Source: a virus. Taken from it: a stretch of 64,000 nucleotides of DNA. The notes beneath the pieces are model-generated. The model was not told where the DNA came from, did no database searches, and saw only the letters and a list, made by a program, of their open reading frames with translations. Numbering within the stretch: the first letter of the stretch is position 1; every line of letters starts with the position of its first letter. Location: IMG/VR virus record IMGVR_UViG_3300041964_000076, positions 1-64,000 of that record; one strand, 5' to 3'. This document shows positions 54,195 to 60,161 of the stretch, one piece after another. The position numbers and the translations under genes were made by a program.

Positions 54195-54983
54195 ATGACA
54201 ACTGTAACAACAAGAGACCGTGTTAGTGAAGCAGCTTTGAGCGTATTGAAAGCTGCAACGTGCAACGAAACTCAGATCAAACTGAATAGCCCAAAGCTCG
54301 ATCGCGGGTTGTACCTCGAAGTAAACGAAGTGCTAGAGCGATTGGGTGGCAAATGGAAAGGTGGCAGAGTGGCAGCGCATATCTTTCTCTTTGACCCATC
54401 ACCACTCTTTCAAGCGGTGCTAGACACAGGTTTACTGCCAGCTAAGAACCCGCTAGCCTTCTTTCCCACGCCTGAGCCAATCGTCAAAGAAATGATTGCT
54501 CTTGCTGGTGATTTGGACAATATGCAAGTGCTAGAGCCATCAGCCGGATTAGGGGCGATCGCTGACACGGTGAAAGCTATGTACCCAGCAGCACGAATTG
54601 ATTGCGTTGAAATTGACGATTTTAGAGCCTCAATCTTGAGAGCAAAAGGCTACACAACGGCTTGTGATGACTTCTTGCAGTATCCACTGCCTGAACATTA
54701 CGAAGTGATCCTGATGAATCCACCGTTCAGCGTGGATGGCGACAAAGCAGCAGACATCACCCACATTGAACACGCTTACAAATTGCTTGCCCCTGGTGGT
54801 CGTTTAGTAGCGATCGCATCACCTGGCTTTACGTTCCGCACTCAGAAAAAATACACCGCTTTTCGTGAGTTTGTTGAGCAAAACGGTGGCTGGAACGAAG
54901 TTGGTGAAGGTGCATTCAAGGCAAGCGGTACAGGTATCAAAACCGTCATGCTGTGGCTGGATAAGCCAGAGGTGGCAGCATGA
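54195..54983 (+). CDS. N6-adenine-type DNA methyltransferase
   Basis: 262 residues from ATG 54195. SAM-binding motif LEPSAGLGAIAD, acidic loop VEIDDFRASILR and catalytic NPPF (LMNPPFSVDGDK). The segment before it (FFPTPEPIVKEMIALA) is usual for phage adenine methyltransferases of this class. The N-terminal helical part (ALSVLKAATCNETQIKLNSP) resembles a DNA-recognition extension. End overlaps the next start with the conserved GAGGTGGCAGCATGA junction. Confidence 0.85.
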   Translation: MTTVTTRDRVSEAALSVLKAATCNETQIKLNSPKLDRGLYLEVNEVLERLGGKWKGGRVAAHIFLFDPSPLFQAVLDTGLLPAKNPLAFFPTPEPIVKEMIALAGDLDNMQVLEPSAGLGAIADTVKAMYPAARIDCVEIDDFRASILRAKGYTTACDDFLQYPLPEHYEVILMNPPFSVDGDKAADITHIEHAYKLLAPGGRLVAIASPGFTFRTQKKYTAFREFVEQNGGWNEVGEGAFKASGTGIKTVMLWLDKPEVAA

Positions 54984-55384
54984 GCAACACAACCACAACC
55001 GAACTGCTGCCACTGTTTCAAGAGTGGGCAGAGATGGAGAGCGATCGCTGCATTGTTAAACGCTACGGCGATCCAGAAGCTAACTGTTTAAACATTGAAG
55101 TGAAGTTTGTCTGTTGGGTGAGGGTAGTTACTTGCACAAGGGGCGATTTGTCTTTCAGCAAAACAGATCAGGCGATCGTGCAGGCAGTGGTGCAAGAAGC
55201 GATTAGCGATCATGGTTGGTTCGGATCTTCAAATACAGGCAAAGGATCTACTGTAGAAAATCCAACAGCTTTTGTGTCTAGAGGAGTTGGAATCTCTAGC
55301 GACTACTCGGAAGGATTAACCCCAGCGATCGCCCTTCTCGCCGCATACGTGCAAGCCATTCGAGCAGCGAGGGCAGCATCATGA
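54980..55384 (+). CDS. Hypothetical protein
   Basis: 134 residues (MSNTTTTELLPLFQEWAEME ... CIVKRYGDPEANCLNIEVKF ... LTPAIALLAAYVQAIRAARA). Alpha/beta with C-terminal AIxLLAAYVQA helix like the phage ABA-type small proteins. Between two methyltransferases, coupled on both sides by ATGA overlaps. Function unknown. Confidence 0.5.
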   Translation: MSNTTTTELLPLFQEWAEMESDRCIVKRYGDPEANCLNIEVKFVCWVRVVTCTRGDLSFSKTDQAIVQAVVQEAISDHGWFGSSNTGKGSTVENPTAFVSRGVGISSDYSEGLTPAIALLAAYVQAIRAARAAS

Positions 55385-56181
55385 GCGCCCAATATTTTGG
55401 CAGCAAAGCTTCCCTCGCCAAATGGATCTGCAACAACCTGCCAACACATACAACCTACATCGAACCATTCGCAGGTAGCGGGGCAGTCCTACTGCAAAAG
55501 CAACGCTGTCAGTCTGAGCAATTAAACGACCTGAACCAATCAGCCATCAACTATCTGTACTGGCTGCAAAGCGATGTCGCTGGCTTAGTGGATAACATTC
55601 ACCACTTGCAACCAGACTACACGATCGCCCTGCCCACAGAAGACCAGACGATCGCCTCTGCTGCATTCTTCTACCTCTACTCACAGCTCTCGTTTATGGG
55701 CGGTGGGACTCGTTGGAGTACAGGCGCAAGTACGAACGGCTACCGAATCAACACCGGGCACCTCTGGCAGGACTCGCAGCGCTTGCAAGGCATAAAACTG
55801 ACCAGGCACGATGCCTTTGAGGTGATTGAGCAGGTGAGCGACACAGATACCTTACTTTATGTCGATCCACCCTATCTCGGCTCTGTACGCAAGTCGAAAG
55901 ACAACCGTACAGCGAATCCCATTGAGTCGATGCCACGCCGCCAGTACGCCTATGAGTTGCTGAGTGAGGACGAACATAGAAGGTTAGGCGAGGTGCTACA
56001 CCGATCGCCTGCAATGGTCGTCTTAAGCGGTTTCCCATCGAGCTTATACGAGTCGCTGTTTGAAGTGCAGGGGTGGGCAGCAGCAAGCAAACGGGTGAAC
56101 GGTGGGGTAGAAAGACTCTGGCTTAATCCTGCTGTACAGAAGCGGCTGCCGCAGTTGAGTTTGTTGGAGGTCGCAGCGTGA
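55381..56181 (+). CDS. dam: Dam-like (D12 class) adenine DNA methyltransferase
   Basis: 266 residues. AQYFGSKASLAKWICNNLP at the start, SAM motif IEPFAGSGAVLLQK, catalytic YVDPPYLGSVRKS, and the segment FMGGGTRWSTGASTNG typical of D12 enzymes. Methylates adenine, probably in GATC (inference from the Dam family); GATC is inside every HIP1 site. Intact frame. Coupled to its neighbours. Confidence 0.88.
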   Translation: MSAQYFGSKASLAKWICNNLPTHTTYIEPFAGSGAVLLQKQRCQSEQLNDLNQSAINYLYWLQSDVAGLVDNIHHLQPDYTIALPTEDQTIASAAFFYLYSQLSFMGGGTRWSTGASTNGYRINTGHLWQDSQRLQGIKLTRHDAFEVIEQVSDTDTLLYVDPPYLGSVRKSKDNRTANPIESMPRRQYAYELLSEDEHRRLGEVLHRSPAMVVLSGFPSSLYESLFEVQGWAAASKRVNGGVERLWLNPAVQKRLPQLSLLEVAA

Positions 56182-56540
56182 ACCACTCACCATCGAGCCT
56201 CATCCACTACCTCATCCGCGCCGTGAGGCAGAGCCAAAGCCTCATCGCCACTGAACGCGCGATCGGCTCTCACCTCAAAAAGTCCCTCTGCACTCAAGCG
56301 ATGATCCGTCTGGAATGCCTGTATCCCTACACCGTCATTTGGGATCTACAGGTGGTAGATGATGCCCTGTCGCTACTGCTACGCCTTGACTGCCCTTTTC
56401 CTGAAGCTTTCGACCTCTACACGGTAAGAGCGATCGCACTGGTCTTGCAGCAGGAACTAGGCGTAGAGAATTGGGCAATTTTGGGGAGTGACGATCGCGG
56501 CTACCGTGTCCACGGCTCGACTTTGGAGGTAGCAGCGTAA
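56178..56540 (+). CDS. Hypothetical protein between methyltransferases
   Basis: 120 residues (MNHSPSSLIHYLIRAVRQSQ ... PYTVIWDLQVVDDALSLLLR ... LTLEVAA end). Helical, no family. Translationally coupled to both methyltransferases by GTGA and TAATG overlaps. Confidence 0.5.
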   Translation: MNHSPSSLIHYLIRAVRQSQSLIATERAIGSHLKKSLCTQAMIRLECLYPYTVIWDLQVVDDALSLLLRLDCPFPEAFDLYTVRAIALVLQQELGVENWAILGSDDRGYRVHGSTLEVAA

Positions 56541-57616
56541 TGGCCATCCTTAGAACTTTAGATTTATTTTCAGGCATTGGTGGCTTCTCTCTGGCCGCTC
56601 GCATGGTGGGCGGTATTGAGACACAGCAATTTGTTGAAATCAATCCGTACTGCCAAAAAGTATTAGCAAAGAATTTTCCAGGTATTCCATGCCATGACGA
56701 CATCCGAACCTACACAGCTAAACCTGGAGCTTTTGATCTCATCACCGGAGGCTTCCCATGCCAAGACATTTCAGCCGCAGGTAAGCAGGCAGGCATCAAA
56801 GAAGGCACGCGATCGGGCTTGTTCTTTGAACTCATGCGAATCATTCGCCTGGTTCGACCCCGATACGTTGCTTTGGAAAACGTCTCAGCGTTGCTTGCTA
56901 ATGGGATGGACATCGTACTCAGGGAGCTTTCCCAAAGCGGGTACGATGCAGAATGGTCAGTTGTTTCATGCGCCGATGTGGGCGGTGTCCACCTTCGAGA
57001 AAGGGTCTGGATTGTTGCCGACTCCAACGGCATCGGATACGCTCAACCGCAGACCTGGCAACCCTCACACGACGAAGAACGGCACGATTCGCCATGTGAA
57101 CGCAGAAGGACATCAGAGCTTTATGCGACTGTCACAGGTTGTACAGTTGCTACCAACACCGCGCCGTACAGATTTCAAGGGAGCTGTCACAGCAAAAACT
57201 GCTCAAGGATGCCTAGAAAGGGGCTACAGTCCCAACCTGCCAGAGTATTTGCAGTTGAGAAAAGCAGGATTACTGCCAACGCCCACAACACGAGACTGGA
57301 AGCACGGCAGCGCTGCTCAGGTAGACAAGCCACGATCGGAGCAATTGAACGATCGCTGTGCAGCGGCAACGGGCAAGACAAGGCTCAACCCTGTGTTTGT
57401 CGAAATGATGATGGGCTATCCGCAAGGATGGACAGACCTTACCTGATGACCCTGGAAGACTTGCCGCAGTTGTTGCCTTACGCAACCGATAGCGAACAAG
57501 TAGCCAATCGCAAAGAGCGGTTAGAAGCCTTAGGCAATGCGGTTGTACCCCATGTCGCAGCGATCGCACTCCAACGAATCTTGGCCCTGGAACTTTTGCG
57601 GGAGGTGGCAGCGTAA
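56540..57616 (+). CDS. C5-cytosine DNA methyltransferase
   Basis: 358 residues. Motif I LDLFSGIGGFSLAARMVGG, catalytic Cys in motif IV TGGFPCQDISAAGKQ, motif VI ENVSALL, motif VIII-like HLRERVWIVADSN, target-recognition region (about 165-310) with CRNDDGLSARMDRPY, and motif X RLEALGNAVVPHVAAIALQR. Complete and of normal size. From 56694 to 57446 the same DNA carries a second open frame in the +1 frame (see next entry). Likely target includes CG-rich sites such as CGATCG, but specificity is not predictable here. Confidence 0.9.
   Translation: MAILRTLDLFSGIGGFSLAARMVGGIETQQFVEINPYCQKVLAKNFPGIPCHDDIRTYTAKPGAFDLITGGFPCQDISAAGKQAGIKEGTRSGLFFELMRIIRLVRPRYVALENVSALLANGMDIVLRELSQSGYDAEWSVVSCADVGGVHLRERVWIVADSNGIGYAQPQTWQPSHDEERHDSPCERRRTSELYATVTGCTVATNTAPYRFQGSCHSKNCSRMPRKGLQSQPARVFAVEKSRITANAHNTRLEARQRCSGRQATIGAIERSLCSGNGQDKAQPCVCRNDDGLSARMDRPYLMTLEDLPQLLPYATDSEQVANRKERLEALGNAVVPHVAAIALQRILALELLREVAA
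56694..57446 (+). CDS. Overlapping +1-frame protein (SSPEAS...GWTDL family) inside the C5 methyltransferase gene
   Basis: 250 residues from ATG 56694 in the +1 frame. The sequence is SSPEASHAKTFQPQVSR ... WFDPDTLLWKTSQRCLLMGW ... SGSFPKAGTMQNGQLFHAPM ... LLPTPTASDT ... LNPVFVEMMMGYPQGWTDL. This is the order of a phage protein family usually found next to C5 methyltransferases (SSPxASxAKT, YDPxTxxWRTSQ, FSxxFPRSGxM.NG, LPTPxASD, NPxFVExMMGxPxGWT). Both frames are free of stops over 753 bp and both match known patterns. Function unknown. No clear ribosome site before the ATG. Confidence 0.6.
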   Translation: MTTSEPTQLNLELLISSPEASHAKTFQPQVSRQASKKARDRACSLNSCESFAWFDPDTLLWKTSQRCLLMGWTSYSGSFPKAGTMQNGQLFHAPMWAVSTFEKGSGLLPTPTASDTLNRRPGNPHTTKNGTIRHVNAEGHQSFMRLSQVVQLLPTPRRTDFKGAVTAKTAQGCLERGYSPNLPEYLQLRKAGLLPTPTTRDWKHGSAAQVDKPRSEQLNDRCAAATGKTRLNPVFVEMMMGYPQGWTDLT

Positions 57617-59507: not shown

Positions 59508-60161
59508 CTAAGCAGCCACAGAATCGCTTTCACCTTTCAGCTTTTTTCTGCTGACAAGCTCTTCAGGATGACAGCCAACAACGCTAACTATTGCGTCAAC
59601 GATCGTCATGTCAATATCGCTGGGGATGCTGTCAGCGTTGCACCATTGCCGCAATTTGGCAGAACTGACTTTTATAGAAAAGCGATCGCGCAGTTCTGCC
59701 TGAAGTTTTATGCGAGTAACTCTTTGACTTGCCAACACAACTCTCAAAGACCAATCGCGCCCGTACCGATGCTTGCTCCAATCGTAAGGCTTTGGCAAAA
59801 CATAGCGATACATCCTTGGAGGCTCTTTGCAAACGGAATACCGATATTTAGATCGGCGCTTGGTCGATGGGTCGTAGTTAAAAAACGGTTTCAGTCTGCT
59901 TATAAAGTAGTTTTCGTATTCATCCAGGAACTCACTCTTTGCAGGAAGCCACGCAATAACAGGAGTAACGTACGGCAAAGCAAGGTCATAAATACTGTGG
60001 GAGAGCCACCTAATAAGAATATTTTTGCTCTGCCCCACATAAAGAATTTCTCTGCGACTGATCACAAAGTAAATGCCAGATACAGCAGGCAAGTTCTTGC
60101 GATCGCGCAGTGGTACAAACGGCAAATCAAACGGATTAACAGAGTCAAGATTCATCGTCAA
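59508..60161 (-). CDS. GIY-YIG endonuclease with C-terminal HTH-like part
   Basis: 217 residues. LPAVSGIYFVISRREILYVG plus QSKNILIRWLSH is the GIY-YIG core (SGIYF ... YVGQS ... RW); ENYFISRLKPFFNY supplies the C-terminal core residues with Glu. The last 70 residues (KLQAELRDRFSIKVSSAKLR ... DMTIVDAIVSVVGCHPEEL) look like a helix-turn-helix/recognition part. Coupled with the XRE gene by ATGA. The large rightward frame opposite it is a shadow. Confidence 0.8.
   Translation of the reverse strand: MTMNLDSVNPFDLPFVPLRDRKNLPAVSGIYFVISRREILYVGQSKNILIRWLSHSIYDLALPYVTPVIAWLPAKSEFLDEYENYFISRLKPFFNYDPSTKRRSKYRYSVCKEPPRMYRYVLPKPYDWSKHRYGRDWSLRVVLASQRVTRIKLQAELRDRFSIKVSSAKLRQWCNADSIPSDIDMTIVDAIVSVVGCHPEELVSRKKLKGESDSVAA

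Follow-up and report, generated by a model that had tools for sequence, protein, structure and literature searches.

The 64,000-nucleotide window analysed here (positions 1 to 64,000 of IMG/VR record IMGVR_UViG_3300041964_000076) lies in a 107,563-base virus record with tail genes (tape measure). The octamer GCGATCGC, which abounds in cyanobacterial genomes, occurs 94 times in the 64 kb, which suggests a cyanobacterial host. Three DNA methyltransferase loci stand in a row at positions 54195-57616: a PF05175-type locus (54195-54980), a Dam-like PF02086 locus (55381-56178) and a C5-cytosine methyltransferase ORF (56540-57616; 358 aa; PF00145, E 7.8e-41) within which a second ORF (56694-57446; 250 aa) is open in the +1 frame. 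The product of the latter matches PHROG_1008 'DNA methyltransferase' (E 9.8e-29), but no Pfam family. Further along the window, a minus-strand protein (59508-60161) with GIYFVISRREILYVGQSKN resembles a GIY-YIG endonuclease by eye, with no Pfam or PHROG match. The host-frame and +1-frame ORFs are referred to below as alpha and beta, and the features distinguished at the locus are as follows, with the assignment of the target-recognition region being inferred.

56540-57616, plus strand: alpha ORF (358 aa), C5 methyltransferase motifs I-VIII and X
56694-57446, plus strand: beta ORF (250 aa), nested in the +1 frame, with a predicted hairpin block, an LPTP-containing target-recognition region and motif IX
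56561-57019, plus strand: alpha catalytic motifs I (DLFSGIGGF), IV (GGFPCQ), VI (ENV) and VIII (RERVWIVA); pLDDT about 96
56680-56696, plus strand: beta start, ATG at 56694, with a weak AGGT 10 bases upstream (only a 4-base match to the anti-Shine-Dalgarno complement)
56832-57038, plus strand: conserved beta block bN (SCESFAWFDPDTLLWKTSQ...YSGSFPKAGTMQNG...LLPTPTASD), overlapping alpha motifs V-VIII, with both frames constrained
57012-57041, plus strand: beta LPTP unit 1 (LLPTPTASDT), where the host frame reads VADSNG
57147-57176, plus strand: beta LPTP unit 2 (LLPTPRRTDF)
57270-57299, plus strand: beta LPTP unit 3 (LLPTPTTRDW)
57035-57490, plus strand: alpha pass-through segment (residues 166-317), predicted to be mostly disordered
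57381-57440, plus strand: motif IX in the beta frame (RLNPVFVEMMMGYPQGWTDL), where the host frame reads NDDGLSARMDR
57491-57610, plus strand: motif X segment of alpha (EALGNAVVPHV...), outside beta

The sequence-only reading had proposed dual coding at 56694-57446, with methyltransferase motifs I-X in the host frame, a target region retaining DDGLSARMDR, and a +1 product recognised from separate phage proteins found near C5 methyltransferases. The observation itself is confirmed, with the coordinates and the relative frame of both ORFs exactly as described.

Conservation and selection in the two frames

Using tblastn with the +1 product, 173 phage records were found. In Synechococcus phage S-H1, Acinetobacter phage vB_AbaM_ABMM1 and a podovirus both frames are open, while only the methyltransferase frame is annotated. 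Using the +1 protein, an alignment thereof and an alignment of the host frame, 264 loci were gathered from viral contigs, phage records and genomes, and sub-profiles were built for alpha motifs I-VIII, alpha motif X, the +1 conserved block (bN) and the +1 C-terminus (bIX). Of these, 220/264 loci have bN and bIX in one +1 ORF and motif X in the alpha ORF, while only two nested loci have bN and bIX in different +1 ORFs. Among the 80 genome loci, which were found with alpha alone, 45 are fully nested and six more have motif IX in the +1 frame and motif X in alpha. These loci come from Pseudomonadota, Bacteroidota, Bacillota, Planctomycetota, Verrucomicrobiota, Actinomycetota and candidate phyla, among others, and an E. 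coli prophage copy (strain PT62, near a terminase gene) is nested with only alpha annotated. The occurrence of the same arrangement in 220 loci from many sources, including finished phage genomes and an E. coli chromosome, rules out a sequencing or assembly frameshift that split one ordinary gene, which the distribution of the modules over two frames might otherwise have suggested. Prevalence was sampled only roughly, with a beta-profile match in 9/229 genomes of one class and 15/244 of one phylum, and weak matches among these may be shadows of single-chain enzymes.

To determine whether the +1 frame is open by chance, synonymous codons were shuffled with the alpha protein and codon usage held. 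For the window alone, 4.8 +1 stops are expected in 203 overlap codons and none is seen (shuffle P about 0.005). Over 162 non-redundant relatives (27,989 codons), one +1 stop is observed against 613.7 expected, while the +2 frame is at expectation (1622 observed; 1564 expected). The nested loci were chosen partly by having bN and motif IX in one ORF and the number is thus conditional, but nearly all loci in which both are detected have them in one ORF, so that the condition removes little. By position, +1 stops are at expectation for alpha residues 1-48 and little below it at 49-60, fall at 61-84, are almost absent to the end of motif IX, and return at motif X (120 observed versus 108.8 expected, then 155 versus 95.1). 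Four-fold-site divergence at matched alpha residues is about 0.65-0.69 before beta, dips to 0.32 over the FSxxWPRxG part of bN, 0.33 at LPTP unit 1, 0.25 at LPTP unit 3 and 0.12-0.18 at motif IX, and returns to 0.67 at motif X. The stop depletion and the synonymous constraint both start and end sharply, matching beta. In motif IX the most variable host codon position is the first, which is the beta wobble position, a signature of +1 coding rather than of nucleotide-level conservation. The bIX profile scores 37.3 bits on real sequences and -1.3 bits on shuffled ones (147/147 above all their own shuffles), and the bN profile 70.7 against 24.1 bits (138/147).

In fourteen independent pairs at 70-92 % alpha identity, a simple dual-frame count gives omega values (odds of nonsynonymous change against expectation) for alpha of 0.22 before beta, 0.31 over bN, 1.22 over the target region, 1.10 at motif IX and 0.19 after it, whereas those for beta are 1.68, 0.96, 0.40, 0.22 and 1.56, respectively. 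Although few pairs and a simple substitution model were used, alpha is thus not under protein-level selection across the target region and motif IX, while beta is. Over bN alpha dominates, with beta constraint visible among alpha-synonymous changes (OR 0.27; +2-frame control 1.53), and both frames are constrained together mainly over roughly sixty codons overlapping motifs V-VIII. The host-frame block DDGLSARMDR (consensus GRVAxGVxxRVDR) is therefore not a target domain, as had been read from the sequence, but the out-of-frame shadow of the motif IX sequence of beta (WVEWLMGFPxGWTD). It could be argued that the +1 ORF is an untranslated shadow of the conserved methyltransferase frame kept open by codon bias, as part of the bN similarity is such a shadow (synonymous shuffles still score 24 bits) and single-chain control enzymes also show mild +1 stop depletion (about 0.66 of expectation over the clear controls). 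However, considering the near absence of +1 stops, the constraint of synonymous sites exactly at the beta motifs, the hand-over of selection to beta in the target region and motif IX, and the near-separate and fused relatives described below, this is very unlikely.

All 163 non-redundant nested loci have a start codon in the +1 frame before bN, and in 158 of these an ATG is present. In the window this is the ATG at 56694 (alpha codon 52), near where stop depletion begins, while ribosome-binding-site statistics were not informative. In one clade (loci L005, L219, L238 and L270) the +1 frame is open nearly from the alpha start, and in L270 a +1 ATG lies four bases after it. An ATG about 98 codons before bN recurs in 27 loci, but constraint so far upstream was not seen. 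The order of the modules along the DNA is that of a single-chain enzyme and fused relatives exist, so that a single polypeptide made by programmed frameshifting, from motif VIII into the +1 frame and back for motif X, could be considered. This appears improbable, as two shifts would be needed in nested loci, every locus keeps an internal start, constraint in the +1 frame begins upstream of motif VIII, which a late shift would not translate, and M.EcoHK31I is described as two polypeptides (PMC3404938). Internal initiation thus explains the data better than frameshifting.

Predicted structures and module order among relatives

The AlphaFold model of alpha has a pLDDT of about 96 for residues 1-165, mostly 33-58 for residues 166-317 (below 50 for 188-284), and high confidence again for the C-terminal helices, with the predicted disorder lying exactly between motifs VIII and X. 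Foldseek matches this model to the large domain of M.HhaI, a single-chain enzyme with no nested gene, over 169 columns of 327 residues (rmsd 1.9), and the alpha profile aligns to M.HhaI residues 12-179 and weakly to 297-318, skipping the small domain. Motifs I, IV (PCQ), VI (ENV), VIII and X of a C5-cytosine methyltransferase occur in order in alpha, but a target-recognition region and motif IX are absent between VIII and X in this chain and present in the +1 frame. The beta model is poor (mean 64), with confident hairpins in bN and a helix at motif IX, and finds no structural neighbour, with Foldseek against the PDB giving only noise (best E 0.5). Profile searches of beta and of its C-terminus against PDB sequences found no methyltransferase, and a comparison of the beta motif IX profile with that of single-chain enzymes was in register but not significant (probability 0.3 %, E 0.22). 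Similarly, Pfam gave nothing meaningful for any of 79 beta sequences, although all 79 match PHROG_1008, a cluster of annotated ORFs which carries the methyltransferase label without stating that the protein is a nested target/IX subunit. The target-domain label for beta therefore rests on position, selection and fused relatives.

The pattern LxPxxxxxxMGxP of motif IX (LxPxxxxxxMGYP in M.HhaI) occurs in beta, and in the alpha frame just before motif X in ReT1v (L003), Mycetocola (L234) and Streptomyces (L257). In these three loci and A1SD1 (L268), motifs IX and X are in the alpha frame while the +1 frame keeps bN and LPTP units, so that the division of labour varies in some Actinobacterial loci. 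Gene 65 of Mycobacterium phage Phasih (L265, 745-1971) carries motifs I-VIII, LLPTPSAAD, LHPAFPEWMMGWPAGWVT (motif IX) and IGNGVVPQQ (motif X) in one frame. In Arthrobacter phage Chubster, alpha (gene 81) is followed by gene 82 with many LPTP units, IX and X, which overlaps alpha by only 35 bases as annotated, though its frame is open further upstream and keeps a bN-like block inside alpha. The LPTPxAxDxKG unit of beta is repeated in L003, L257 and L264, with many copies in Chubster gene 82. Mycobacteriophage Arturo gp76/gp75 comprises alpha with motifs I-VIII, then beta with the target region, IX and X. The same modules thus sit in different frames in different lineages, and the +1 module is most likely the target-region/IX part of the enzyme. 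A tree of alpha (57 rows, 161 columns) is too poorly resolved to say whether nesting arose once, although the Actinobacterial frame variants group with good local support. Insertions are also seen among the relatives. In Acutalibacter (L251, 1042-2475) an HNH-like nuclease sequence (CxxC ... HHIDQNPKNN ... CAGCH), interrupted by one stop, sits between motifs IX and X in the +1 frame while the alpha frame stays open across it (478 aa), and in Gordonia phage Hans (L269, 582-2657) a LAGLIDADG endonuclease gene (964-1419) is inserted within alpha between motifs VI and VIII, yet the alpha frame stays open for 692 codons across it.

A two-polypeptide methyltransferase as the favoured interpretation

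The locus most likely encodes one C5-cytosine DNA methyltransferase as two polypeptides from overlapping frames, an interpretation held with high confidence. In this view, alpha makes the catalytic domain, comprising the SAM-binding, PCQ and ENV motifs and motif VIII, followed by a largely unstructured pass-through and motif X, which completes the catalytic domain. Beta would start at the internal ATG and make the small domain, with the hairpin block, the variable LPTP-containing target-recognition region and motif IX, and the two would assemble into one enzyme in the manner of M.EcoHK31I. A single-chain enzyme may have taken a frameshift after motif VIII and a compensating one before motif X, with the orphaned target/IX segment surviving through internal initiation and gaining the hairpin block by overprinting. 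The analysis demonstrates the conserved openness of the +1 frame, the hand-over of selection between frames, the module content and the existence of fused and unfused relatives, whereas the translation of beta, the heterodimer, DNA methylation and this history are inferred by computation alone.

The interpretation given in the sequence-only reading is partly supported. Dual coding is real and conserved, with the +1 frame under protein-level selection, but the overprinting of a functional gene on a complete enzyme is not supported. An independent protein of unrelated function could be suggested by the conserved N-terminal block of beta, which was not seen in single-chain enzymes, and by the lack of a known fold. 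This is unlikely, as the host frame has no motif IX, no folded target region and no selection there, and beta ends in a motif-IX-like sequence that other lineages carry in the alpha frame right before motif X. The separate family proposed in that reading appears to be this same subunit, as no relative was found lying apart from a methyltransferase. All 264 loci had an alpha, and even the nearly separate Chubster gene 82 abuts alpha.

The architecture resembles that of M.EcoHK31I (YGGCCR), a two-polypeptide C5 methyltransferase with motifs I-VIII and X in the large subunit and motif IX in the smaller polypeptide (PMC3404938), and this division is also seen in the window. M.EaeI is a further enzyme of this kind. 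The gene for the small subunit of M.EcoHK31I is nested in another frame of the large one, as is beta in alpha. However, the target domain of M.EcoHK31I was predicted in the large subunit (PMC3404938), while selection, predicted disorder of alpha and fused relatives place it in the small one here, and the published prediction may also be wrong for M.EcoHK31I. In M.AquI the catalytic and target halves are separate polypeptides (PMC3404938), an arrangement matched by the Arturo and Chubster relatives (I-VIII, then target region, IX and X). In the window, by contrast, motif X is in the first subunit and the second gene is nested in another frame. What is new is the breadth of the arrangement, the evidence that beta carries target recognition and the change of frame by modules between lineages. 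No description of nested methyltransferases of this family was found among the openly licensed papers searched, a scope that excluded most subscription papers and REBASE and does not exclude earlier recognition of the family.

It is somewhat more likely than not that a large, old and mostly unrecognised family of phage and bacterial C5 methyltransferases stores its catalytic and target-recognition halves in two overlapping frames, with the target region, IX and X having switched frame repeatedly between lineages to give nested, split and fused enzymes, and with the nested subunit having gained a new N-terminal hairpin block by overprinting motifs V-VIII. Long same-strand nested gene pairs with strong evolutionary evidence are rare in bacteria and phages, and here hundreds of diverged natural copies allow the passage of coding function from one frame to the other and back to be followed along a single enzyme. 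A nested small domain is also a natural scaffold for split-methyltransferase tools. On the interpretation favoured here, annotation misses half of an enzyme in many phage and bacterial genomes, such methyltransferases expressed from recoded versions of the annotated ORF would probably be inactive, and target specificity should be read from the +1 frame.
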